DNA of 64,000 bases from the NCBI GenBank assembly GCA_020831845.1, contig JAFIFV010000046.1, forward strand, positions 1-64,000. The letters are read 5' to 3'. The stretch's first letter is position 1; each line of letters starts with the position of its first letter. Below are positions 13,279-42,206 of the stretch, in pieces. A program made the translations under genes and the position numbers. This stretch comes from Ectothiorhodospiraceae bacterium. GTDB lineage: Bacteria; Pseudomonadota; Gammaproteobacteria; Nitrococcales; Aquisalimonadaceae. The notes under the pieces were generated by a model. That model saw nothing but the letters and a program-made list of their open reading frames with translations, was not told where the DNA came from and did no database searches.

Positions 13279-14184
13279 GGTGGTGGTCCTCTCGGTTGCT
13301 GCACGGGCGGACGCCCGCGAAGGGGTAATGATTCGGCTGGAGCGGTTCACGTCCGCTTCCAGCTCGGCGATGGCATCGCCCAGGGTGGATACGCCGTGCA
13401 CGAGCCCGATGCGCTGCGCTTCGTGCGTCATGAAGATGTCCGCTTCCGTGTCGCGCACCGCCTGCTCCGTAATGCCCAGGTGATGCGCCACCAGCCCGAC
13501 AAACTGCTGATAGCTGCTATCCACGATCGCCTGCAGGCGCTCCCGGGCGGCATCGCTCAACGGTGCGTGCGGACTCATGTCCGCCTTGCGGGCTCCAGCG
13601 AATACCGGCGTGTACCGCACGCCGTCGCGCTTGTTCTTCTCGCTGCGGTCCTGGTGCATGGCGATCACGCCAATGCTGCCGGCCAGGGCACTCTCCGGAG
13701 CAAGGACACGGCGGGCCGCACTGCCCAGCCCATACGCGGCACTGAACATGCTTTCGTTGCTCACCGCCCACACGGGTTTCTCGCCGTCCACCTGGCGAAT
13801 CAGCCGCGCGAGCTCGAACATGCCGGCCGCTTCGCCGCCTCCGCTGTCCAGATCCAGCACGATGCCACGCACGCCGTCGTCCCGGGCGGCCTCAGTGAAC
13901 TGGCGGGCCAGGCCCTGATAGCTGGTCATGCCGGAGTAGCTGCCAATCCAGGCGCCGCGGTGCACAAGGGTGCCAACGACAGGAACCACGGCCACGCCGC
14001 GGTCGGTGACGAAGTAGGTGCGCTGCTCGGCCGCTCGGGCGCCACCCAGGGCAGCCTCCGGCTTCGGTGTCTCACCGGCGGACCAACGCCACAGCACCTC
14101 TTCGATGATCACGGCCTTCTGCCAGTCAACCAGCAGCGGCGTGTTGTAGATGCGGGGTGCCAGTTGGGCCAGACGCTCAACCAT
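12889..14184 (-). CDS. Capsid maturation protease, S49 family (gpC-like), with scaffold domain
   Basis: 431 residues from ATG 14184, which has AGGAGG about 7 nt upstream and overlaps the portal stop. Residues about 60-290 form an S49/SppA-like serine protease. Ser148 (in ESMFSAAYG) and Lys200 (in AGARKADMSP) are 52 residues apart, the same spacing as the Ser166/Lys218 pair of lambda gpC, so they are the likely catalytic dyad. After a linker the C-terminal 129 residues form an acidic, helical scaffold, also made separately from an internal start. The enzyme is expected to cleave itself, scaffold and portal inside the prohead. Confidence 0.93.
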   Translation of the reverse strand: MVERLAQLAPRIYNTPLLVDWQKAVIIEEVLWRWSAGETPKPEAALGGARAAEQRTYFVTDRGVAVVPVVGTLVHRGAWIGSYSGMTSYQGLARQFTEAARDDGVRGIVLDLDSGGGEAAGMFELARLIRQVDGEKPVWAVSNESMFSAAYGLGSAARRVLAPESALAGSIGVIAMHQDRSEKNKRDGVRYTPVFAGARKADMSPHAPLSDAARERLQAIVDSSYQQFVGLVAHHLGITEQAVRDTEADIFMTHEAQRIGLVHGVSTLGDAIAELEADVNRSSRIITPSRASARAATERTTTMDPKTETADKPEQSAITEADLQAARAEGYQEGLKTGAEQERVRVSGILEHPEAEGRTALAHKAVSTGLTVEQAADLLAASPKTAAQDLPDIATVPAANVGPGSATGEDDDDRAAAQAAVARYTRRPAVQ

Positions 14185-15751
14185 TGGCGGCCTCCTGGTT
14201 TCGGGCTTCGTCACCACTGACGGGGATCACCGGCGTGTTGCTGTAGGCGTCCAGCAGGCCTTCCTCCTGCATGCGCCTGCGCTCCCGTGCACGCTGCTTC
14301 AGCTGCTCTTCCCAGTCCGTGCCCTGCTCGGCGCACTCGTCTTCCAGCGTGGAAATGCCCAGGTCCATGCGGATCCTTGCGGCCTGCGCTTCCTTGACCG
14401 GGTCCACCCAGCCGCGGCCAGCGAACACCCAGCGCGCACGGCTGTACGCGTAGCGGTCAGCCCGGTACTCCGGAGTGGTCACACGGCCAAGCCGGCGACG
14501 GGCGATTGCCTCGTCCATCCAGAGCTCGTACACCGGGCGCAGCCAGTGATCCTTCAGCCAGCGCTGCCGGCCCTTGAAGTACCGCCAGGCTTCCAGCAGG
14601 GCAGCACGGGCACTGCTGTAGTTCGTCTTGCTGAAGTCCTTCAGCAGCACTTCGTAGGGAATGTTCCAGCCCACCGCGATATGCCGCAGCGTGCTTTCCA
14701 TGAACGCGTCAAAGGCGTTGTTCGGGCGGTTGGGCGAGAACGCATGCACCCGCCCACCGGTCGGGATCGGGATGATGGCGGAGCCCTGAAGCTGGGCCTG
14801 GAAGCCGTTGAGCTGGGCGCGCCAGACGTCGTCCGGGTTCTTGTCACCAGGAGCGCCCGCACCAAACAGGGCGGACGCGGCCTCCGGAGAGAGATCACTC
14901 TCCAGGAATGCGGCGACCATGGCCGTGGCCAGCGCCGTCTCCAACTCCGCGTCGGAGTACTTGCCGGCCAGGCGGAATTCCTTCATGACGCTGCTGAGGA
15001 TCGGCTTGCCCCGGCTCAGCCCGGCGCGGTCCTTGTCGTACAGGTGGATGACGCGTGGCAGACCATGTGGCGTGAACGCGGGTATCTCACGCCACTGGAA
15101 GCGGTCCAGCGCACCCATCAGCCCATAACGGTCACCTGGGTGCTGGCGACGAATGCCGTAGGAGACAGCCGCGCCGAATTCGTCCACACGCACCCCTTCC
15201 CGCCAGTACGCGTTGTTCGCCTGGCCAGGCGGGTTGCAAAGGCGGTCAGCCTCCACGATCTGGAACCTGGTCGCCCAGCGGTGGCCCGGCAACGGCTGCC
15301 ATTCCGGAATGGCGATGGCGTCGCCGTTCATGAAGCTGCCGCGCAGCATCAACAGCGTGAGGCCCAGCAAGTTGTCTCGCCGGGCCGCGTCGCACTCGGT
15401 GGTGTTCGCGTAGCTATCGAACTGCGCTTCCGTGCCGTTCGCCCACTCCTCGGCGTCGTCTTCCTCCCAGCCGAGCAGGCGCGCGTGCGGCTTGGCGGAC
15501 AGGCGCAGCACGCTGCCCACGATGTTGTCGCCCAGCGTCTGCAGGCCGCCGGAGGCAATGCCGTTGTTCCGGAACATATCCCGCGAGCGCGGGCGGATCA
15601 GGCCGAGCTCCGGCAGCAGGTCGCCATCGGCGGAGCCGTTGGTGGGGTACCAGTTGCGCATGGTGCGCTCGGCGGGATCGCCGGCCGTGTAGGCCGCCGC
15701 CTGCAGCGGCAGGGTGTTGTTGGTCTTCAGGCGGATGTGCGGCTTGGCCAT
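14177..15751 (-). CDS. Portal protein (lambda gpB family)
   Basis: 524 residues from ATG 15751, which overlaps the gpW stop (TGATG). The sequence has hallmarks of lambda-type portals: NGIASGGLQTLGDNIVG near the N-terminus, a long helix region, KDFSKTNYSSARAALLEAW in the clip/crown part, and a charged C-terminus. Twelve copies form the DNA entry ring at one capsid vertex and dock the terminase. Its C-terminus overlaps the protease start by 8 nt. Confidence 0.95.
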   Translation of the reverse strand: MAKPHIRLKTNNTLPLQAAAYTAGDPAERTMRNWYPTNGSADGDLLPELGLIRPRSRDMFRNNGIASGGLQTLGDNIVGSVLRLSAKPHARLLGWEEDDAEEWANGTEAQFDSYANTTECDAARRDNLLGLTLLMLRGSFMNGDAIAIPEWQPLPGHRWATRFQIVEADRLCNPPGQANNAYWREGVRVDEFGAAVSYGIRRQHPGDRYGLMGALDRFQWREIPAFTPHGLPRVIHLYDKDRAGLSRGKPILSSVMKEFRLAGKYSDAELETALATAMVAAFLESDLSPEAASALFGAGAPGDKNPDDVWRAQLNGFQAQLQGSAIIPIPTGGRVHAFSPNRPNNAFDAFMESTLRHIAVGWNIPYEVLLKDFSKTNYSSARAALLEAWRYFKGRQRWLKDHWLRPVYELWMDEAIARRRLGRVTTPEYRADRYAYSRARWVFAGRGWVDPVKEAQAARIRMDLGISTLEDECAEQGTDWEEQLKQRARERRRMQEEGLLDAYSNTPVIPVSGDEARNQEAANG

Positions 15752-16002
15752 CAGCACACCCCCAGGTAGATCGGCCCACGGCGCACCCTGCCCTTTCGAG
15801 CGTCCAGGGCCTGCTGCAGGGCATTGATGTACTGCTGGAGCTTGCTGGCGTTCGCCTCGGTGTACTGCACCCGGCGGCCGTCCCGCGTGGTCACGCTCAC
15901 GTCCTGATCACCCAGCATCAGACGGTGCTGAGCGTCCAACGCCTCTTGCAAACGCTGTTTCAGCGTTTCGGCGGGCAGGCACTTCAGGCTGGAGTAGTCC
16001 AT
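15751..16002 (-). CDS. Head-tail joining protein gpW-like
   Basis: 83 residues. Mostly helical with a central DGRRVQYTEANASKLQQYI, close in size and pattern to gpW (68 residues) of lambda, which fills the gap between portal and tail. It precedes the portal gene as in lambda. No Shine-Dalgarno is visible before the ATG; instead an 8-bp hairpin (CACAGGCT/AGCCTGTG, 16007-16029) ends just upstream. Confidence 0.82.
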   Translation of the reverse strand: MDYSSLKCLPAETLKQRLQEALDAQHRLMLGDQDVSVTTRDGRRVQYTEANASKLQQYINALQQALDARKGRVRRGPIYLGVC

Positions 16003-16116: not shown

Positions 16117-16374
16117 ATGCTCACGATCACCTACACCAAGGAAGCCCAAAAGACCCTGCGCAAGATGCCGCGGAACACTGCGCGGACCATCGTGCGCAAG
16201 CTGGAGCAGTACGCGGTGGCCCCGGCGAGCCAGGCCGCCAACGTGAAGCAACTGCAGGGCGAGGATGCTTACCGGCTGCAGGTCGGCGATTGGCGGGTGA
16301 TCTTTCACCAGGACGGCGACGCCATGACCATCCTGGTGCTGCGTGTGAAACCCCGAGGAGGTGCGTACAAATGA
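16117..16374 (+). CDS. RelE/ParE-family toxin
   Basis: 85 residues. The pattern ITYTKEAQKTLRKMP, KLEQYA, VKQLQGEDAYRLQVGDWRVIF and LRVKPRGGAYK is typical of the RelE superfamily of ribosome-dependent mRNA interferases. The YRLRVGDYRVIF-type core strand and the C-terminal R..K..G are present. The gene overlaps the antitoxin start (ATGA). It is on the strand opposite to the surrounding late genes, so it can be expressed in the lysogen. Confidence 0.88.
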   Translation: MLTITYTKEAQKTLRKMPRNTARTIVRKLEQYAVAPASQAANVKQLQGEDAYRLQVGDWRVIFHQDGDAMTILVLRVKPRGGAYK

Positions 16375-16739
16375 CCGTGCAGATTATCGAGAAGGATGGC
16401 CGCCCGGAGTGGGCGGTGATCCCATATGACCAGTACCTTGTGATGACGGAGGCGCTGGAAGACCGTGCCGACGCCGCCGATGCAGCCGAGGCGCTACGCG
16501 CCGTCCGGGCCGGCGAAGAGGAAGTGATCCCGGCTGCTGTGGTGCACCGGCTGCTGGACGAAAACCCCTATCGCCCGTGGCGGGAATACCGCAAGCGCAC
16601 GCTGCAGGATGTCGCCGACGAGGCAGGCATCAGCAAGCCGTATCTCTCGCAGATCGAGACCGGACAGCGGGAACCGTCACGGAGCATCCGGGATGCAATC
16701 GCCCGTGCGCTGAACGTGGAGCCGTCCGATCTGGAATAA
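16371..16739 (+). CDS. Antitoxin with PHD-like N-terminus and XRE helix-turn-helix
   Basis: 122 residues from ATG 16371, which overlaps the toxin stop. The first 40 residues (VQIIEKDGRPEWAVIPYDQY) resemble the fold of PHD/YefM-type antitoxins. Residues about 70-120 form an XRE HTH (TLQDVADEAGISKPYLSQIETG). The fused domains suggest that toxin binding and operator binding sit in different parts of the protein. The stop overlaps a terminator that serves the opposite strand. Confidence 0.85.
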   Translation: MTVQIIEKDGRPEWAVIPYDQYLVMTEALEDRADAADAAEALRAVRAGEEEVIPAAVVHRLLDENPYRPWREYRKRTLQDVADEAGISKPYLSQIETGQREPSRSIRDAIARALNVEPSDLE

Positions 16740-16786: not shown

Positions 16787-17125
16787 TCAGAGGTTCTGCA
16801 CCCAGACCTGCAGGCCTCGGTCCAGTTTGGTGCCGTCCGCGAACGTCACGCGGTTGGTGAGCAGGTGGCGGCCCGTGTCCGCATCCGTGTCCAGCAGTGC
16901 CTGGTTGCAATGGCTGTAGGTTTCGCCCTGGGCGTCCTCGGCAGTCACGTCCTGCCGGGTGTCCTCGACGCTCCAGCCATCCGGCAGGATCCACTCGCTG
17001 GACTGGATTGCGCCCCGCCGAGACACAACGTCACCCCAGAACACGGTCACCCACTCGCGGCCATCCGGGTCCCACCAGACCTGGTCCTCCGGCGCACCGC
17101 GCCCGGTGTGGATGAGCGGCCGCAT
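16787..17125 (-). CDS. Fibre-tail adaptor-like protein
   Basis: 112 residues. The pattern WGDVVSRRGAIQSSEWILPDGW, GRHLLTNRVTFADG and DRGLQVWV matches the small immunoglobulin-like adaptors that couple fibres to phage tails. It is the last gene before the terminator. Two other small virion-type genes precede it. Confidence 0.55.
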   Translation of the reverse strand: MRPLIHTGRGAPEDQVWWDPDGREWVTVFWGDVVSRRGAIQSSEWILPDGWSVEDTRQDVTAEDAQGETYSHCNQALLDTDADTGRHLLTNRVTFADGTKLDRGLQVWVQNL

Positions 17126-17127
17126 GG

Positions 17128-17493
17128 TTACGGTGCCGCCGGAGCCGCGACGCGCACGCCCCAGGTACCCACGGTGACGGTACCGCCCTGGGTGAGCATC
17201 TGCGGATCACACACGGTGACGTAGATGTGGTCGCCCTCATCCACCACCACGTGGTCCGCCTCGCCGGTGGCGTCGATCGGCAGGTCTGCCTGCTGGTCCA
17301 TGTCCACCCGACGGCCATCCGGGCTGGCGTTGCTCTTCGTCCAGTCCGAAGGCGTCAGGGTGGCCTCCGCCAGGGCCACGTTGCTGAGGTCGTTCAGGTC
17401 CGTGGGCTCGCCGGCGCAGACCGTCAGGCGAGTGGTTTCCGCCACCCGGTCCAGCGTGCCGTCGATGTAGTAGTCATCCGCTTTGCGTGGCAT
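17128..17493 (-). CDS. Small phage virion protein
   Basis: 121 residues. The opening YYIDGTLDRVAETTRLTVCAGEPTD followed by a beta-rich body with ATGEADHVVVDEGDHIYV is a recurrent pattern among phage structural proteins next to fibre genes. No enzymatic motif. Probably part of the fibre attachment structure. Confidence 0.6.
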   Translation of the reverse strand: MPRKADDYYIDGTLDRVAETTRLTVCAGEPTDLNDLSNVALAEATLTPSDWTKSNASPDGRRVDMDQQADLPIDATGEADHVVVDEGDHIYVTVCDPQMLTQGGTVTVGTWGVRVAAPAAP

Positions 17494-17729
17494 TAGCTCT
17501 TACCTCGCTTCACTGCGGCCGTCCCGGCCTCCACATCACGCGGCTGCACCTGCACAGCCCCCGGCTGGGCTTCCGGGCCGGGCTCCATGCCTTCGATGTC
17601 CACCCAGCCGGCTGCGCGCCAGTTGAGCACCTTGTCGTCGGGGATGCCCAGTTTGACCGAGTCGTGCTTGTTGTCCGCCTCGAACTGCCGGTGCATTGCC
17701 CGGTAATCGCATTTCACCGTGAATATCAC
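17493..17729 (-). CDS. Small phage protein of unknown function
   Basis: 78 residues from GTG 17729, supported by AGGAGG 5-6 nt upstream. It contains CDYRAMHRQFEADNKHDSVKLG and a Pro/Gly/Val-rich C-terminal half. The stop overlaps the next start. No family was recognised. Confidence 0.55.
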   Translation of the reverse strand: MIFTVKCDYRAMHRQFEADNKHDSVKLGIPDDKVLNWRAAGWVDIEGMEPGPEAQPGAVQVQPRDVEAGTAAVKRGKS

Positions 17730-17738
17730 GTCTGCCTC

Positions 17739-20387
17739 CTACTGCTTAACCATCAGGAATCGATCCGTGGGCGCGACGATCACCAGGCGCACATGGTCGT
17801 CTGCAACCAGCAGGCGTTCATGTGCCTGCACCAGCAGCAGCCGGCCTGCGCGAAACACCCCATCCGGCCACGGAACCTGACTGCTCAGGTGTGCGTGCAG
17901 CGCGTCGGACACCACAAGCAAGGCATCCTCCATCAGCTCTGCCGAGAGGCTGTCATGCGCATGCACGGCGTCCTGCACGGCGAGCATGTCGGCCGCGGTA
18001 AGCGGCGCGGGGGTGGACGCCTGGGAGTGATCGGTATCCAGTGGCTGCAGCACCAGAGCCAGAGTTGTGGTTGCGCTGTCGCTTTGGTGCTGGTGCTCGA
18101 CCCCATGCACCGCGATGACGTGCGCCTGCGTCAGTAGCGGTGCTCCAGCGCTGTGACCGTGGATGACGTCATGCGCGTTGATGAGGCCAGCCAAGCCCAA
18201 AGTGACCGCGGTCGCCCAATGCGCCTGGTCGCTTCCCTCTACGCCCAGCACTACCGACTCGGTGAGAGCAGCCTGCCCGCTGGTGTGCACCTGCAGGGCG
18301 TCCAGCACGGCGAGCTGTGCGGCTTGGCTGAGTATCGTGCCGCTGCTCGTCTGCGCCTGGTCGCTGGCCTCCACTCCCAGGGCTGAGGACTCCGCGAGCG
18401 AAGCCACGCCAGCCGCGTGGCTATGCACCGCGTCCGCCGCTGACAGAGAGGCGGCCTGGCTGATCGGTGGAGAGGCGGTGGCGTGTGCATGCTCGCTGCT
18501 CGCAACGGTCAGCACAGTCGCTTGGGAGAGGTCGGGCGCCGTCGCTGATTGCGCGTGAGCAGAAGATGCCGGCTGAACCTCCATTGCTGCGCTGAGACTG
18601 ACCGCCGCCGCAGACTGTTCGTGTGACGCGTCCGAGGCCTCCAGGATGAGCGCGCCCGCGAGCGACGGCGCATCGGAGACTACGCCGTGCGAACTGCCTG
18701 CAGGCTCGAGACTGGCGGCTTCCGCGAGTGCCGGGCTGTCCGATGCTTGGTGATGCGCGGCGTCATCCGGCAAGACCTGGTCACCGGGCGGATCAGGGTC
18801 CAGCGGGGCGTCCGGAGCTACCCAGCCGTTGCCTCCAACGGAAAACGAGTAAACCTTCAGCTCATTGACGATGAAGGCAATACCGGTTTCGCCGTCGGTG
18901 TAGACGTTGGAGTCGTTGTTACCAAGTTGCCAATTTGTGGGCTCCGGATCGCTCGCCTTCCAGTATCTGGCCTGCACACCGTTCCCATTCATGCGGAGAC
19001 GCACGAAACCTCGATCACCCCGATCCACACTACCTGTCGGGAAGTTGTTAGACCCGTTTGTGGTAGGAGATCCATTCAAGTACCGAACCGTCTGGTCTGC
19101 ATCCAGAACGCCGTCGAACCGCACATAGCGGGCGCTGTGGAATGTCTCGGAACCCTCGGTGGTCAGTCCAGATCCCCGTATGAACGCGGCAATCTGCCCT
19201 TCTGCCCCCTCGAACTCCATCAGGATCTCAGTGTCGGGACCAAGCGCGCCGGCAGGCAAAAAGCGAAGGATCGCCAACCCACCGCCGGAGCGTGTCACAT
19301 CGATATACTTTCGACCGTCTCCGTCTTCCTGGATCGTGAACCCGCTGACGCGGTTTCCGGCTGCCCACGCATCATCGGGCACATCGTTGACGTCGTAATC
19401 CTCGGCGGTCCAGTGGTACTGCTGCTGCGGACCGGTAGGCGCCGGGTCGCCATCTAGGCCGACACTGAACCAACGAAAGGTTGCTCCGGAGTCCGCCCAG
19501 TTCTGAATGCCGACATGGCCAGGTCCCGCGTACACGCTATTGGTGGTTGAGGCGGTCCAAGCAACGGTTTCCCGGCCGGCACCTACTCCCTCCTGCCACG
19601 TCTTGTGTTGGAGCGAATTCCCCGACAGTCGGAATCGGCGAGTGTGGTAGAGCGTATTGTCATGCCCAGAAAACGAGTTGTTGGTCAGTGTGCTGCGGGC
19701 GCCGCCTTCGAAAATGACCATGCGGGTATTGGATGTTACCGACGCAAAAGAGGCGTAGTTGTCTCCACTGTCATCCCCACGGGCGAATATGCCAGCGCGC
19801 TCATTGGACGCCGTGGTTTCGACACGCATCTCTGATGCAATCTCGACGTCAGACACCTGGCCGATTACATCCAAGGAAAACCAGCTATTGAATTCGTCGA
19901 TGCGGAGCGCGGGAGAGCCGTCATCAGAGATGATAGAAAGCGATCCACTTCCATAAAGCCGAGTAAACTCATCCAGGATGCCCGGATCACTGGCCTGAAA
20001 GAAAAACTGCGTAGGCATCAGCTCAGCCTCCTCGCTACCGCGCCAGCTCGCCACGACGCGGAACTGGCTGGCAGGAGCAAGCGCTGGGAGCTGAATGACG
20101 CCCCCGAGCTCCACAACGACGGGCTCAGAGTGCACCGACAGCCGTCCGTCGGTGTCCTCCGTTCGCGCTGTGCAGGTGTGCTCACCCTCGGGCAGGCCTG
20201 CAACCGTCCAACTGGTGCCAGTGACCAGGCCGCTGACTTCCTCCCCGCCGCAGTAGATGCGATAGCCAGCGATCTCGTCCGCGCTGAGCGGCGTGCCATC
20301 CATCCGTCCGTCCGGCGGCACCCACGTAAGCGTCCCGGCCGAGAGGATCCCGGCCAGCAACGCTGTGATGAGTGCCAGCACACGCAC
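17739..20387 (-). CDS. Large secreted fibre protein with 13 histidine-rich 22-residue repeats
   Basis: 882 residues from GTG 20387. Upstream alternatives are a TTG that would overlap the previous gene by 53 nt and lack a signal-like start. Residues 1-20 (VRVLALITALLAGILSAG) look like a signal peptide. An Fn3-like domain follows (IAGYRIYCGG, LPEGEHTCTART), then two concanavalin/LamG-like beta domains. Next come 13 exact 22-residue repeats (nt 17898-18755), each opening with H/Q-x-H/Q, and a degenerate end. The repeats likely form a fibrous, perhaps metal-binding, stalk. Exact function unknown. Confidence 0.75.
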   Translation of the reverse strand: MRVLALITALLAGILSAGTLTWVPPDGRMDGTPLSADEIAGYRIYCGGEEVSGLVTGTSWTVAGLPEGEHTCTARTEDTDGRLSVHSEPVVVELGGVIQLPALAPASQFRVVASWRGSEEAELMPTQFFFQASDPGILDEFTRLYGSGSLSIISDDGSPALRIDEFNSWFSLDVIGQVSDVEIASEMRVETTASNERAGIFARGDDSGDNYASFASVTSNTRMVIFEGGARSTLTNNSFSGHDNTLYHTRRFRLSGNSLQHKTWQEGVGAGRETVAWTASTTNSVYAGPGHVGIQNWADSGATFRWFSVGLDGDPAPTGPQQQYHWTAEDYDVNDVPDDAWAAGNRVSGFTIQEDGDGRKYIDVTRSGGGLAILRFLPAGALGPDTEILMEFEGAEGQIAAFIRGSGLTTEGSETFHSARYVRFDGVLDADQTVRYLNGSPTTNGSNNFPTGSVDRGDRGFVRLRMNGNGVQARYWKASDPEPTNWQLGNNDSNVYTDGETGIAFIVNELKVYSFSVGGNGWVAPDAPLDPDPPGDQVLPDDAAHHQASDSPALAEAASLEPAGSSHGVVSDAPSLAGALILEASDASHEQSAAAVSLSAAMEVQPASSAHAQSATAPDLSQATVLTVASSEHAHATASPPISQAASLSAADAVHSHAAGVASLAESSALGVEASDQAQTSSGTILSQAAQLAVLDALQVHTSGQAALTESVVLGVEGSDQAHWATAVTLGLAGLINAHDVIHGHSAGAPLLTQAHVIAVHGVEHQHQSDSATTTLALVLQPLDTDHSQASTPAPLTAADMLAVQDAVHAHDSLSAELMEDALLVVSDALHAHLSSQVPWPDGVFRAGRLLLVQAHERLLVADDHVRLVIVAPTDRFLMVKQ
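17898..18755 (-). repeat. 13 tandem 22-residue (66-bp) coding repeats with HxH motifs
   Basis: Each unit has exactly 22 codons with no insertion or deletion. Units open with HHQ, HGV, HEQ, HAQ, HAH, HSH, QAQ, QVH, QAH, HGH, HQH, HSQ and HAH, followed by a consensus of about s-a-x-x-x-L-x-x-A-x-x-L-x-V-x-x-[SA]-[DS]. A fourteenth, partly degenerate unit (HAHLSSQ) follows. DNA copies have diverged, while the protein period is kept, so selection acts on the protein. Confidence 0.92.
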
Positions 20388-20391
20388 ACCG

Positions 20392-20805
20392 TCAGCCGCC
20401 GAAGGTGATGGAGATGGTGGTGCGGAAGTTGGCGGGCGCCTCAAGCTCGGGATCCAGACTGAACTCCGCCGTAGCCGTGGTTGGGCGCCCTTGCTGGTTG
20501 AACACGGTCAGGCGGCATTCGTAGTTGCCGTCGCTGAGCTGCAGGGTGGTCTGGTATTCGGTCGCATCCGCGTCCAGCTCTGCGTCCACAACGGCGTCAC
20601 CGTCATGTAGGCATCGCAACCGATAGCCCGCAATGTCCTCCGGCGCGGCATCGCTACCATCAACAAATTGGGTCGGCGCATCCCACGTCGCCTGGAGATC
20701 CGCAGTGACGGACGCTCGCACCTCCATGGAGACCATGAGCACGAGGAGCAGAAGGGCGGCGACCATGGCGCCAATGCGGGAAAGTAACTGATTCAGGGGT
20801 TTCAT
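20392..20805 (-). CDS. Secreted Fn3-like small protein
   Basis: 137 residues. A hydrophobic N-terminus (MVAALLLLVLMVSMEVRAS) is a signal peptide or anchor. The rest is an Fn3/Ig-like beta sandwich with DIAGYRLRCLHDGD and LSDGNYECRLTVFN. The same pattern appears in the N-terminal domain of the neighbouring 882-residue protein, so the two are paralogous. Export of a virion-linked protein is unusual. Confidence 0.65.
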   Translation of the reverse strand: MKPLNQLLSRIGAMVAALLLLVLMVSMEVRASVTADLQATWDAPTQFVDGSDAAPEDIAGYRLRCLHDGDAVVDAELDADATEYQTTLQLSDGNYECRLTVFNQQGRPTTATAEFSLDPELEAPANFRTTISITFGG

Positions 20806-21404
20806 GCGGCAATCGCCTCCTCGGCGTTGATGAAGTCATGGATGCGGCCCGCCCAGTAGCGGGCCGCCGGGGCTTCGCCATCGCGGTCCGCGCTCAGGTA
20901 GCTATGGCCGGTGAAGCCCAGCGGCTCGGTGTCGATCTGGCGGACGTGGTAACCGGGATCGGTAAAGCCATGCGCCCCGGCGCTGCCCCAGTAGTGCGGG
21001 ACGAACCAGCTCACCGGATTGATGACGCGCCAGGCGCGGCCGAGCTTCACGGCGCAGTCGCGCCGGTTGTGGAGCACCAGCACGCGGCCTGCGTCGAACG
21101 GCCAGACGGCATCGCGCCGCATGGCGGGCTGGTAAGCGATAACTGCCCGCAGCCGCAGACCCTGGCGGATGGCTTCCGCCGTGACCGGGCAGCCATTGCT
21201 GTGGGCCAGCACAACCTCCGGCTGGGCGGCGATCAGCAGCTCCACGGCACGCCGCATGCGAAGCCGCACGCGGGCCAGATGCACGAAGCCGTAGTCAATG
21301 CGGGCAGTGGTGTGGCCGCGGCGGCGCAGCTGGGCCAGCGTGGGCTCCAGGCTGCGCAGCCCGCCGTCCCGCACGTTGAAGCCGTGGACGCCGACGATGT
21401 GCAT
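20802..21404 (-). CDS. Alpha/beta-fold serine hydrolase
   Basis: 200 residues, ATG start, overlapping the next gene. The start MHIVGVHGFNVRDGG holds the HG oxyanion motif, and VVLAHSNGC is the nucleophile elbow with the probable catalytic Ser. Later HNRRDC (Asp) and a His near GFTGHSYLS could complete the triad. Substrate unknown. Its place beside a lipoprotein in the late region suggests a role in lysis or in modifying envelope lipids, but this is a guess. Confidence 0.75.
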   Translation of the reverse strand: MHIVGVHGFNVRDGGLRSLEPTLAQLRRRGHTTARIDYGFVHLARVRLRMRRAVELLIAAQPEVVLAHSNGCPVTAEAIRQGLRLRAVIAYQPAMRRDAVWPFDAGRVLVLHNRRDCAVKLGRAWRVINPVSWFVPHYWGSAGAHGFTDPGYHVRQIDTEPLGFTGHSYLSADRDGEAPAARYWAGRIHDFINAEEAIAA

Positions 21405-21980: not shown

Positions 21981-22267
21981 TGGCCTTCAGCCAGCCAGCG
22001 ATACAGCGTCCGGCGCGAGATCCCGTGGCGACGGCAGACGGCATCGTGGTTGTCTCCGGAGAAGTCGCGCAGGGCTGCTTCCCTGCGCTCCTGCCGCCGT
22101 GTTTTTGAGACGTACTGCGGCGTGCCTCCGTAGCGGAGCATGACCCGCTCCGTGACCGCCCTGGCCGAGTCTTCCGCGACCTGGTTGCTCACACCACGCG
22201 TGCGCAGGCAGTCCTGCACTTCCACCCGGATGAATTCCAGCACATTGTCGATCTCCTGATTGGCCAT
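21968..22267 (-). CDS. Mor-type transcription activator
   Basis: 99 residues. It has the N-terminal helices and the C-terminal HTH typical of the Mor/C family of phage Mu (DFSGDNHDAVCRRHGISRRTLYRWLAEG). Mor and C dimers bind a dyad and recruit RNA polymerase to middle or late promoters that lack a good -35. Its ATG overlaps the terminase stop. The 41-bp elements at 16025 and 21940 are candidate targets. Confidence 0.85.
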   Translation of the reverse strand: MANQEIDNVLEFIRVEVQDCLRTRGVSNQVAEDSARAVTERVMLRYGGTPQYVSKTRRQERREAALRDFSGDNHDAVCRRHGISRRTLYRWLAEGQCQK

Positions 22268-24477
22268 CAGTAGTGCTCCGTTTTGATGGGGGTGAAGGGG
22301 TTTTTCTTGGGCGGTGTGCCAGCGGCGCCCTGGCTGCCGGCAGCGCCGACGGCAGTCTCCCGCCGTCTGCGCTCGTACTCTTCCACGCTCAGCGTGACGT
22401 ACCGGCCCGCCTTGGCCTCGGCGTCAAGGTCCACGCCGCTAAGGCGCATGGCGGCTATGGCCAGCACCAGGCAGTCCAGCGCCTCATTCCGTGCGCGGAT
22501 CTTCACCCACTCCTTCGCAGTCCGGCCGCCGCGGACGCGGTCCACCAGTTGCTCAGCGGCGAGCTGGGCAAAGTATTCATCGTCGAAGGCGGGATCCTCC
22601 AGGAAATGGATATACCCAGGCTTGGCCTCGCCGGGCGGCGGCGCGTCCTGTTTGAGCCTGGCGTAAATCACGCTCTTGGCGTTGTCCACCCCGATGGGCT
22701 CAACCGGCACGCCGCGTTTGCGGCGATACCGCAGCCGCTGCCGGCGGCGGCGCTCGTCCTCCACGATCGGCCGTTGCATCCCTGACAGGCCCTTGGTGGC
22801 ATGCGCCCAGCCGTGCTGAGCCACGAAGTGGTATACGGCATCGGCGTTGTAGCCCGAGTCGATGCAGGCACAGGTAACGTGCTGGTCCTGCAGCGCGGAT
22901 TCCAGCTCATCCCACACAGGGCCGTCTTTCTCGGAGGTTTCACCGGGGAGGATCAGATGGGTGATGACCCAGCCCTCTTCGCCCGCCCCGGCGGCATAGA
23001 TGGTGGCTTCCAGGCGGTCTTTCTGGACGTCCACGCCGGCCACGATAACCACGGCGGGAATGCCCTGAAACCTCAGTTTCTCCAGCCGAGTGATCAGCGC
23101 CAGGTCCTCGATGCTGTCGCCCTTCTCCCTGTAGGCCTCGCCCATATCGGTGTTAACGAAGGTGATCCAGGCGCTCGTGTCGTTCTCGCTGTCCGCACGG
23201 GTCTGGGCGAGGTCTTTCCAGCTCTTGCCGAGCCCCAGAGGGCTGTACAGCGCATTCAGCTGGTAGCCACGATGGTGCTTTATGTGCGGCCGGCGGGGGA
23301 CCCAGCGGGCCGCCGCAAACATCTCCGGCTTCTCACCCTCCTCGATCACGCCTCCGCACTCCGGACACACCATCCAGGCCGCCAACACCTCCCGGTGACT
23401 GCTGCCTGCCTCTGGCTCCGAGAGCTTGCACTGCAGATTCTTGAAGTCCAGGACGTGATAGTGCCCGCAGTGCGGACAGGGGACGTGGCGCTGCCGCTGG
23501 TCGCTGCGATCATAGCTGCGGCTGATGCGGCATTGGCCCTCGCGCGTGGGCGTAGAGATCTCGTAGGTTTTCGCGCGGCTGAAGGTGCGCTGGCGGTTGT
23601 CCAGCAACAAGCCAGGATCGCCCTCCCCGCCCAGCTCCCATGGGTATGCGCTCGCTTCGTCCTGGGCCACATAGGGCAGGTGCGCCATGCGCATGGAGTC
23701 CGGACTATTTGCGCCGGCCTTGATGATCCGGTTCTGGGCACCGTACTCGATCATGTCTTCCCGGTTGGTGGCGTCCCGGCTGGCTGAGCTGACAAGCTCG
23801 CCTAGCGCCGGCGTTTCCTTGAACAGCTTCCGGAGCTTGGGGTTCAGTTCGCGGTTACGGAGATCCAGCGTGGGCACCACCAGGAGCATGTCCTTGTTGC
23901 CCAAGTGGTCCATGATGTAGCCGATCCAGTTGAACAGCACTTCCGTGCCGCCGACGCCGCTGGCTTTCTTGAACGTCACTCGCCGCACGGGGCTGTGCTC
24001 GCTCAGGCTGTCCATGATCTCCCGCAGATGCGGATTGCGGTCAGTGCGCCAGGGGCCTGGCGCGTTGGTGCCGGTATCCAGATGGCGATACCGATCCGCC
24101 CATTCACTGACCGTCAGCAAATCCCGCGGCTGGATGGCGCGACGGATGGCCGCACCCAGTTCCGGCAGCGTGCCCGCCGTTGCCCGCTCCACGGCCTGGC
24201 CCGCCTCGCGCAGCACGTCATAGGCCGCATCGGACAGCAGGTAGTGCACGCGGGTCTCGTCGCTCTCGCCGTCAATCGCGACCAGCAGCCGATCCGCCAG
24301 GCTGCCCATCACACCCAACAGCGCTTCGTTGGCGTCCCTCGCCGCCAGGTGCAACTCCTCCGCCGTGCAGGTCTCCGCCAGTGCCTTCTCGTAGTCCTCG
24401 CGCGCCTGCTGGGCGCGCAGGCGCTCGCGGTCTGCCTGCAGGTCGGCCAGGGTCAGCTGCACTGCCGGTTCACCCAT
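22267..24477 (-). CDS. Terminase large subunit (GpA family)
   Basis: 736 residues. The N-terminal ATPase includes RRVTFKKASGVGGTE (Walker A region of GpA type), DMLLVVPTLDLRNRELNPKL, and YVAQDEASAYPWE (Walker B with DE). The nuclease part contains VIVAGVDVQKDR and TCACIDSGYNADAVY, giving the acidic residues of an RNase H-like core. Zinc-type cysteines occur in CPHCGHYH and CPECGG. It cuts concatemers and drives packaging. GpA-type enzymes usually act at cos sites. Confidence 0.94.
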   Translation of the reverse strand: MGEPAVQLTLADLQADRERLRAQQAREDYEKALAETCTAEELHLAARDANEALLGVMGSLADRLLVAIDGESDETRVHYLLSDAAYDVLREAGQAVERATAGTLPELGAAIRRAIQPRDLLTVSEWADRYRHLDTGTNAPGPWRTDRNPHLREIMDSLSEHSPVRRVTFKKASGVGGTEVLFNWIGYIMDHLGNKDMLLVVPTLDLRNRELNPKLRKLFKETPALGELVSSASRDATNREDMIEYGAQNRIIKAGANSPDSMRMAHLPYVAQDEASAYPWELGGEGDPGLLLDNRQRTFSRAKTYEISTPTREGQCRISRSYDRSDQRQRHVPCPHCGHYHVLDFKNLQCKLSEPEAGSSHREVLAAWMVCPECGGVIEEGEKPEMFAAARWVPRRPHIKHHRGYQLNALYSPLGLGKSWKDLAQTRADSENDTSAWITFVNTDMGEAYREKGDSIEDLALITRLEKLRFQGIPAVVIVAGVDVQKDRLEATIYAAGAGEEGWVITHLILPGETSEKDGPVWDELESALQDQHVTCACIDSGYNADAVYHFVAQHGWAHATKGLSGMQRPIVEDERRRRQRLRYRRKRGVPVEPIGVDNAKSVIYARLKQDAPPPGEAKPGYIHFLEDPAFDDEYFAQLAAEQLVDRVRGGRTAKEWVKIRARNEALDCLVLAIAAMRLSGVDLDAEAKAGRYVTLSVEEYERRRRETAVGAAGSQGAAGTPPKKNPFTPIKTEHY

Positions 24478-40589: not shown

Positions 40590-42206
<1,617 letters not shown>

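Follow-up and report, generated by a model that had tools for sequence, protein, structure and literature searches.

A 22-residue His/Gln repeat array in a prophage protein as the putative shaft of a phage fibre

The window, by which we mean the whole 64,000-nucleotide stretch of DNA analysed here, contains a prophage with genes for terminase, head-tail adaptor, portal, protease, decoration, capsid, tail tube and tape measure proteins (Table 1). A gene whose product carries a long array of 22-residue repeats lies between the terminase large subunit and the head-tail adaptor and portal, and is followed, in order, by genes for proteins of 78, 121 and 112 amino acids. Between this group and the head-tail adaptor is a pair of genes for a ParE-type toxin and an HTH antitoxin, transcribed against the surrounding structural operon. 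At the probable attachment end of the prophage, the gene for a large serine recombinase (XisF/Ccr-like) overlaps a tRNA-Met gene, and this site adjoins the nuo operon, glmM and ftsH.

Table 1. Features of the repeat-protein locus and of the probable prophage end, in window coordinates
Feature	Position	Strand	Remarks
Portal	14177-15757	-	downstream of putative fibre module
Head-tail adaptor	15751-16002	-	downstream of putative fibre module
ParE-type toxin and HTH antitoxin genes	16117-16739	+	within minus-strand structural operon
112-aa protein	16787..17125	-	homologues follow array genes at 24 loci (phrog_4137-like in relatives)
121-aa linked protein	17128..17493	-	family adjoins array genes
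78-aa protein	17493..17729	-	directly downstream of repeat ORF; homologues in same place in L003, L004, L067, L031
Repeat-protein ORF, 901 aa from TTG	17739..20444	-	open frame without interruption; single copy in own genome
C-terminal tail, 34 aa	17742..17843	-	repeated R-x-L-x-V/I strands; tails of relatives compared
14 tandem 22-residue units	about 17844..18776	-	aa 557-867, in perfect register over aa 560-867 (17844-18767); from rows of 22 and profile of relatives
Two weakly similar domains of ~200 aa	18777..20039	-	self-comparison E 0.002, 25% identity
Signal-like hydrophobic segment (VRVLALITALLAGILSAG), then fibronectin-III-like stretch (DGTPLSADEIAGYRIYCG)	20100..20387	-	signal peptide from hydrophobicity alone
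Small secreted Fn3-like protein	20392-20805		upstream of repeat ORF
200-aa protein	20802-21404		alpha/beta hydrolase-like by eye (AHSNG motif)
Terminase large subunit	22267..24477	-	upstream of putative fibre module
Large serine recombinase (XisF/Ccr-like)	40590-42173		with tRNA-Met, probable attachment end (40590-42206)
tRNA-Met	42130-42206		overlaps recombinase gene

The open frame of the repeat protein begins at a TTG codon, a GTG at residue 20 (about 20387) being the likelier start. The signal-like segment and fibronectin-III-like (Fn3-like) stretch that follow have similar segments in related genomes. Beyond them are two domains that are lectin-like (LamG/concanavalin-like) as judged by eye and that returned no database match, then the repeat array, and finally a short tail similar to those in which many relatives end. 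Against Pfam, the PHROGs and PDB sequences, nothing matched the protein. The small secreted Fn3-like protein encoded upstream resembles the N-terminus of the relative L076 and, by eye, that of the repeat protein itself, and Fn3-like matches are recurrent in related genomes. The neighbouring 200-residue protein is without a match in Pfam and PHROGs.

The 22-residue period is strict across the C-terminal third of the frame, with no gaps, and the units follow the pattern L-x-V-x-D-A-x-[H/Q]-x-[H/Q]-...-L-T-Q..., unit 14 being intact in its first half alone. Self-identity in this frame peaks at lags of 22 (0.26), 44 (0.27) and 66 (0.22), with most other lags at about 0.1. Summed over these three lags, 205 identities are observed in 286 residues, versus 82 +/- 8 in shuffled sequences, and none of 20,000 shuffles equalled that value. 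The initial annotation, which had reported a gap-free period over 286 residues, is borne out on this point; its thirteen exact repeats are exact in period, but number 14 and differ considerably in sequence, residues spaced 22 apart being about 26% identical. No 66-base repeat is detected in the array DNA by Tandem Repeats Finder, and the repeat is therefore old. The sites at which His or Gln had been said to alternate hold His in 11 units and Gln in three at the first position, and His in eight and Gln in five at the second, where a single unit (HGV) departs from the rule with Val.

With the whole protein as query, viral and genome collections returned no match because the window units are too diverged; relatives were found by a DNA-pattern scan of viral contigs and cellular genomes for the consensus D-A-x-H-x-H...L-T-Q...L. 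Arrays of 22-residue units are present at 79 of the 84 pattern loci in viral contigs and at only two of the 30 in cellular genomes (L108 and L114). A plasmid search for the repeat found none, and it occurs in one of 50,697 phage records, Microcystis phage Mae-JY22 being the sole match among annotated phages. Terminase, portal, capsid, adaptor and tape-measure genes flank the relatives, and the array genes are placed mostly among those for head and packaging proteins. The consensus of 597 distinct units is L-A-V-A-D-A-x-H-A-H-T-A-D-N-P-A-L-T-Q-A-H-V, and unit spacing is exactly 22 in 563 of 596 cases. When every unit in register is counted, position 8 is His in 923 of 963 units and position 10 in 795, with Gln the main substitute at both (21 and 112 units, respectively); Val, Leu, Asn and Thr are also seen at these sites. 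The T4 gp37-type arrangement, with His-x-His in each repeat unit, is not what the arrays display: both positions are His in 772 of 963 units family-wide, in six of 14 in the window and in none of 12 in the homologue L004.

L004 comes from a genome of the same order and encodes a protein with 37% identity to that of the window. It keeps the 22-residue period while every HxH is gone (L004:1516-3348), mostly replaced by Leu-x-Val/Asn/Pro, and its position 8 is mostly Leu. The sequence pattern suggests that position 8 faces inward and that His is dispensable for the architecture; as the period persists without any HxH, metal would be dispensable for it as well. Array length and arrangement vary among the other relatives. 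At L069:2734-5274 a single protein has 32 units, more than any other array seen. Two loci (L046:5982-11356 and L048:2531-8252) have two neighbouring array genes each, the first of the pair encoding five units and a long C-terminal part, and the C-terminal tail at L034:3564-4889 contains a further short repeat, LGHGDVDTxLGHGDVDT. Matches of the arrays to PHROGs (HNH endonuclease and others), and most of those to Pfam (apolipoprotein, NosD, UPF0688), are scattered over few members and were set aside as compositional chance.

The 121-residue protein belongs to a family that lies beside array genes at 61 loci, counting the window, where it follows the array gene at about 230 bases or immediately precedes it. 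It is present at 55 of the 79 viral array loci versus none of 120 control viral loci, which were picked by the pattern of the Pfam PTR repeat considered below and amount to 1.09 Mb, all array loci together amounting to 0.70 Mb. The AF2 model of the protein (pLDDT 92) resembles the Sf14 neck chain 9c39_K (108 aa; Z 9.9, rmsd 2.7 over 104 residues), the Bas63 connector chain 9mt4_L (Z 9.8) and the phage 7-7-1 fibre chain 9rkv_A (Z 8.1); unrelated methyltransferases appear from Z 7.0, among weaker matches to GP4 fibre/adaptor, A511 gp105 and phi812 arm chains. The small chains of the Sf14 neck (9C39) and Bas63 connector (9MT4) are similar to the 121-residue protein in fold but only about 10% identical to it, and they provide a counterpart for this protein, whereas none is shown for the repeat array. 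Two whisker proteins, gp30 and gp31, are located in the Sf14 neck (PMC11821841). Six of 40 members of the 121-residue family match phrog_3758, a virion structural protein. The family occurs in only three of the 50,697 phage records, and in two cultured phages, Octadecabacter DB virus 2 and Roseobacter phage CRP-6, genes annotated as tailspike or tail fibre come directly after that for the homologue. For this reason, the reading that genes near the portal and terminase must encode head fibres was dropped. The 121-residue protein probably helps to attach fibres, be it at the neck, the head or the tail, and its linkage to the arrays, together with its neck- and fibre-like model, indicates that the array gene is probably part of a fibre module. 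These observations, along with the prophage context, give good support to the designation of the window product as a putative phage fibre protein.

Metal-holding HxH motifs have precedents among phage fibres. In crystal structures of R-pyocin fibres and of T4 gp37, three chains contribute the HxH motifs that hold iron (PMC6116203), just as the initial annotation had stated for gp37, and the three-chain His pairs arranged round the axis at these sites (PDB 2XGF, 6CL5, 6CL6) have the geometry proposed here. Those sites are crystallographic, however, whereas the window array is without sequence similarity to any PDB chain, whether the protein, its profile or its consensus is compared. Another likeness is provided by gp12 of Alteromonas phage R22Y, in which HxH motifs lie 22 residues apart (135/137, 157, 179/181 and 201/203) and which its authors model as an iron-holding trimer (PMC11705849); the idea of a trimer with iron has therefore been published before, for a similar repeat. 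Compared by its published description, gp12 differs in that it is modelled and docked only and has six motifs as against up to 32 units.

It is likely that the array forms the shaft of a fibre, and trimeric organization of this shaft, with the three chains running parallel, seems moderately probable. Each 22-residue unit would add one rung, with the H-x-H side chains directed inward. A rung in which all six residues are His could hold a metal ion, which is iron in the solved HxH fibres, and a rung with Gln in place of His may rely on hydrogen bonds and packing. The window protein would have six all-His rungs at most, since six-His sites are possible in only six of its 14 units. Given this, and the 22-residue architecture retained by the HxH-less relative, the long line of metal ions first envisaged is not supported for the window copy; that it binds metal at all, at up to six sites, is possible, with the chances leaning against it. 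Metal, if present, would conceivably serve to stiffen the shaft or to aid folding rather than to carry out chemistry. The 121-residue protein would probably help to anchor the fibre at the neck or tail. Sugars of the host or the environment may be the targets of the Fn3-like and lectin-like domains in the N-terminal part of the repeat protein. Taken as a whole, the array as the C-terminal shaft of a phage fibre protein is the best explanation, and we give it even chances of being correct.

The array could instead fold as a single-chain beta-solenoid, with each unit forming a three-strand coil and with internal ladders of His, Gln and Leu, but with neither a trimer axis nor metal. The AF2 model of the window array as a single chain, computed with 36 relatives, does contain three strands to each unit, which keep in register in its middle part, and the conserved positions (1 and 3; 8, 10 and 12; 15, 17, 19 and 21) alternate in a manner that fits three strands; the weak Foldseek matches are right-handed beta-helices (P22 tailspike, pectate lyase). 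Mean pLDDT is 62, however, and pTM 0.51, Foldseek returned nothing below E 1 for the PDB or 0.09 for viral models, and it would be unusual for a coil to bury several polar residues. Given that single chains were modelled and that AF2 is prone to unrealistic beta-solenoids for repeat sequences (PMC11795689), the model argues neither for nor against a trimer, and we regard a solenoid as rather unlikely. A trimeric shaft whose His and Gln residues form hydrogen-bonded or pH-sensitive ladders, the native particle being free of metal, is somewhat unlikely. The substitution of Gln and of other residues at the His sites, the mixture of His and Gln in the window array and the absence of HxH from L004 would all be accommodated by such a structure. 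Yet the predominance of both-His units across very diverse phages seems to exceed the needs of packing alone, and the solved phage trimers bind iron through their HxH motifs.

Two further alternatives concern the identity and the location of the protein. The repeat might be a divergent branch of Pfam PTR (PF12789, "Phage tail repeat like"), and hence belong to a known repeat family. PTR proteins, such as gp369 of Bacillus phage G, also carry tandem units with one HxH each, a spacing of 22 being by far the commonest (248 cases in 143 proteins), and the PTR consensus H-x-H-x-I-x-D-V-x-G-L-Q-x-A-L-D-x-K has HxH and one Gln in common with that of the array, H-x-H-T-A-D-N-P-A-L-T-Q-A-H-V-L-A-V-A-D-A-x. 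The relative L064 scores 55.4 bits against PTR in five stretches (cut-off 27), and four of 38 relatives match it at E up to 0.1. The window protein, however, has no match up to E 1 and its repeat region none up to E 0.1, agreement between columns beyond HxH and the one Gln does not exceed that after permutation (p 0.10 ungapped, 0.06 gapped), and neither the repeat nor the 121-residue partner occurs at any of the 120 PTR control loci; descent within PTR is judged rather unlikely. The earlier remark that the unit has no named family holds for the window protein itself, but PTR is a named close analogue, the nearest kind of repeat known, which has been proposed elsewhere to form an iron-holding trimer and which some relatives match. 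A proposed equivalence of an NPHGVT repeat with PTR was rejected by Pfam scans of seven NPHGVT-repeat proteins. PDB matches of the PTR consensus to designed Pizza proteins and internalin are compositional; there is also a weak local match to the tail collar fibre gp4 (9d93). As to location, the protein might go to the cell envelope, exported in the course of lysogeny or lysis, and not belong to the particle. In a virion protein a signal-like N-terminus would be unexpected, which counts against the fibre explanation; such a hydrophobic segment is found in the window protein and in L076, and the genes upstream include one for an Fn3 protein with a signal and one that is lipoprotein-like. Against export, L076 is the only relative with a long N-terminal part to have a clear signal-like segment, many other relatives have short, non-hydrophobic starts, and the linked genes are of virion type; we consider it highly improbable.

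As far as the libraries and papers searched are concerned, the repeat family and its 121-residue partner gene are undescribed; literature searches with the letter strings of the repeat gave only unrelated words among the matches listed. Based on its occurrence at 79 of 84 viral-contig pattern loci, the repeat marks a type of fibre that is common in environmental virus sequence, and its near absence from cultured phages therefore points to a gap in fibre annotation. A broader picture, in which a two-gene fibre module widespread in uncultured phages combines up to 32 HxH repeats, a metal ion in each all-His rung and a neck adaptor of whisker fold, is quite improbable in its entirety. If relatives composed wholly of HxH units do bind iron in the manner of T4 gp37, no phage fibre known to us would be denser in metal than their arrays of 8-32 units, and this would bear on the suggested role of phages as carriers of iron in natural waters. 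The 121-residue partner supplies a simple gene-neighbour rule by which fibres of this kind may be found, and Microcystis phage Mae-JY22 offers a cultured system in which they could be tested.
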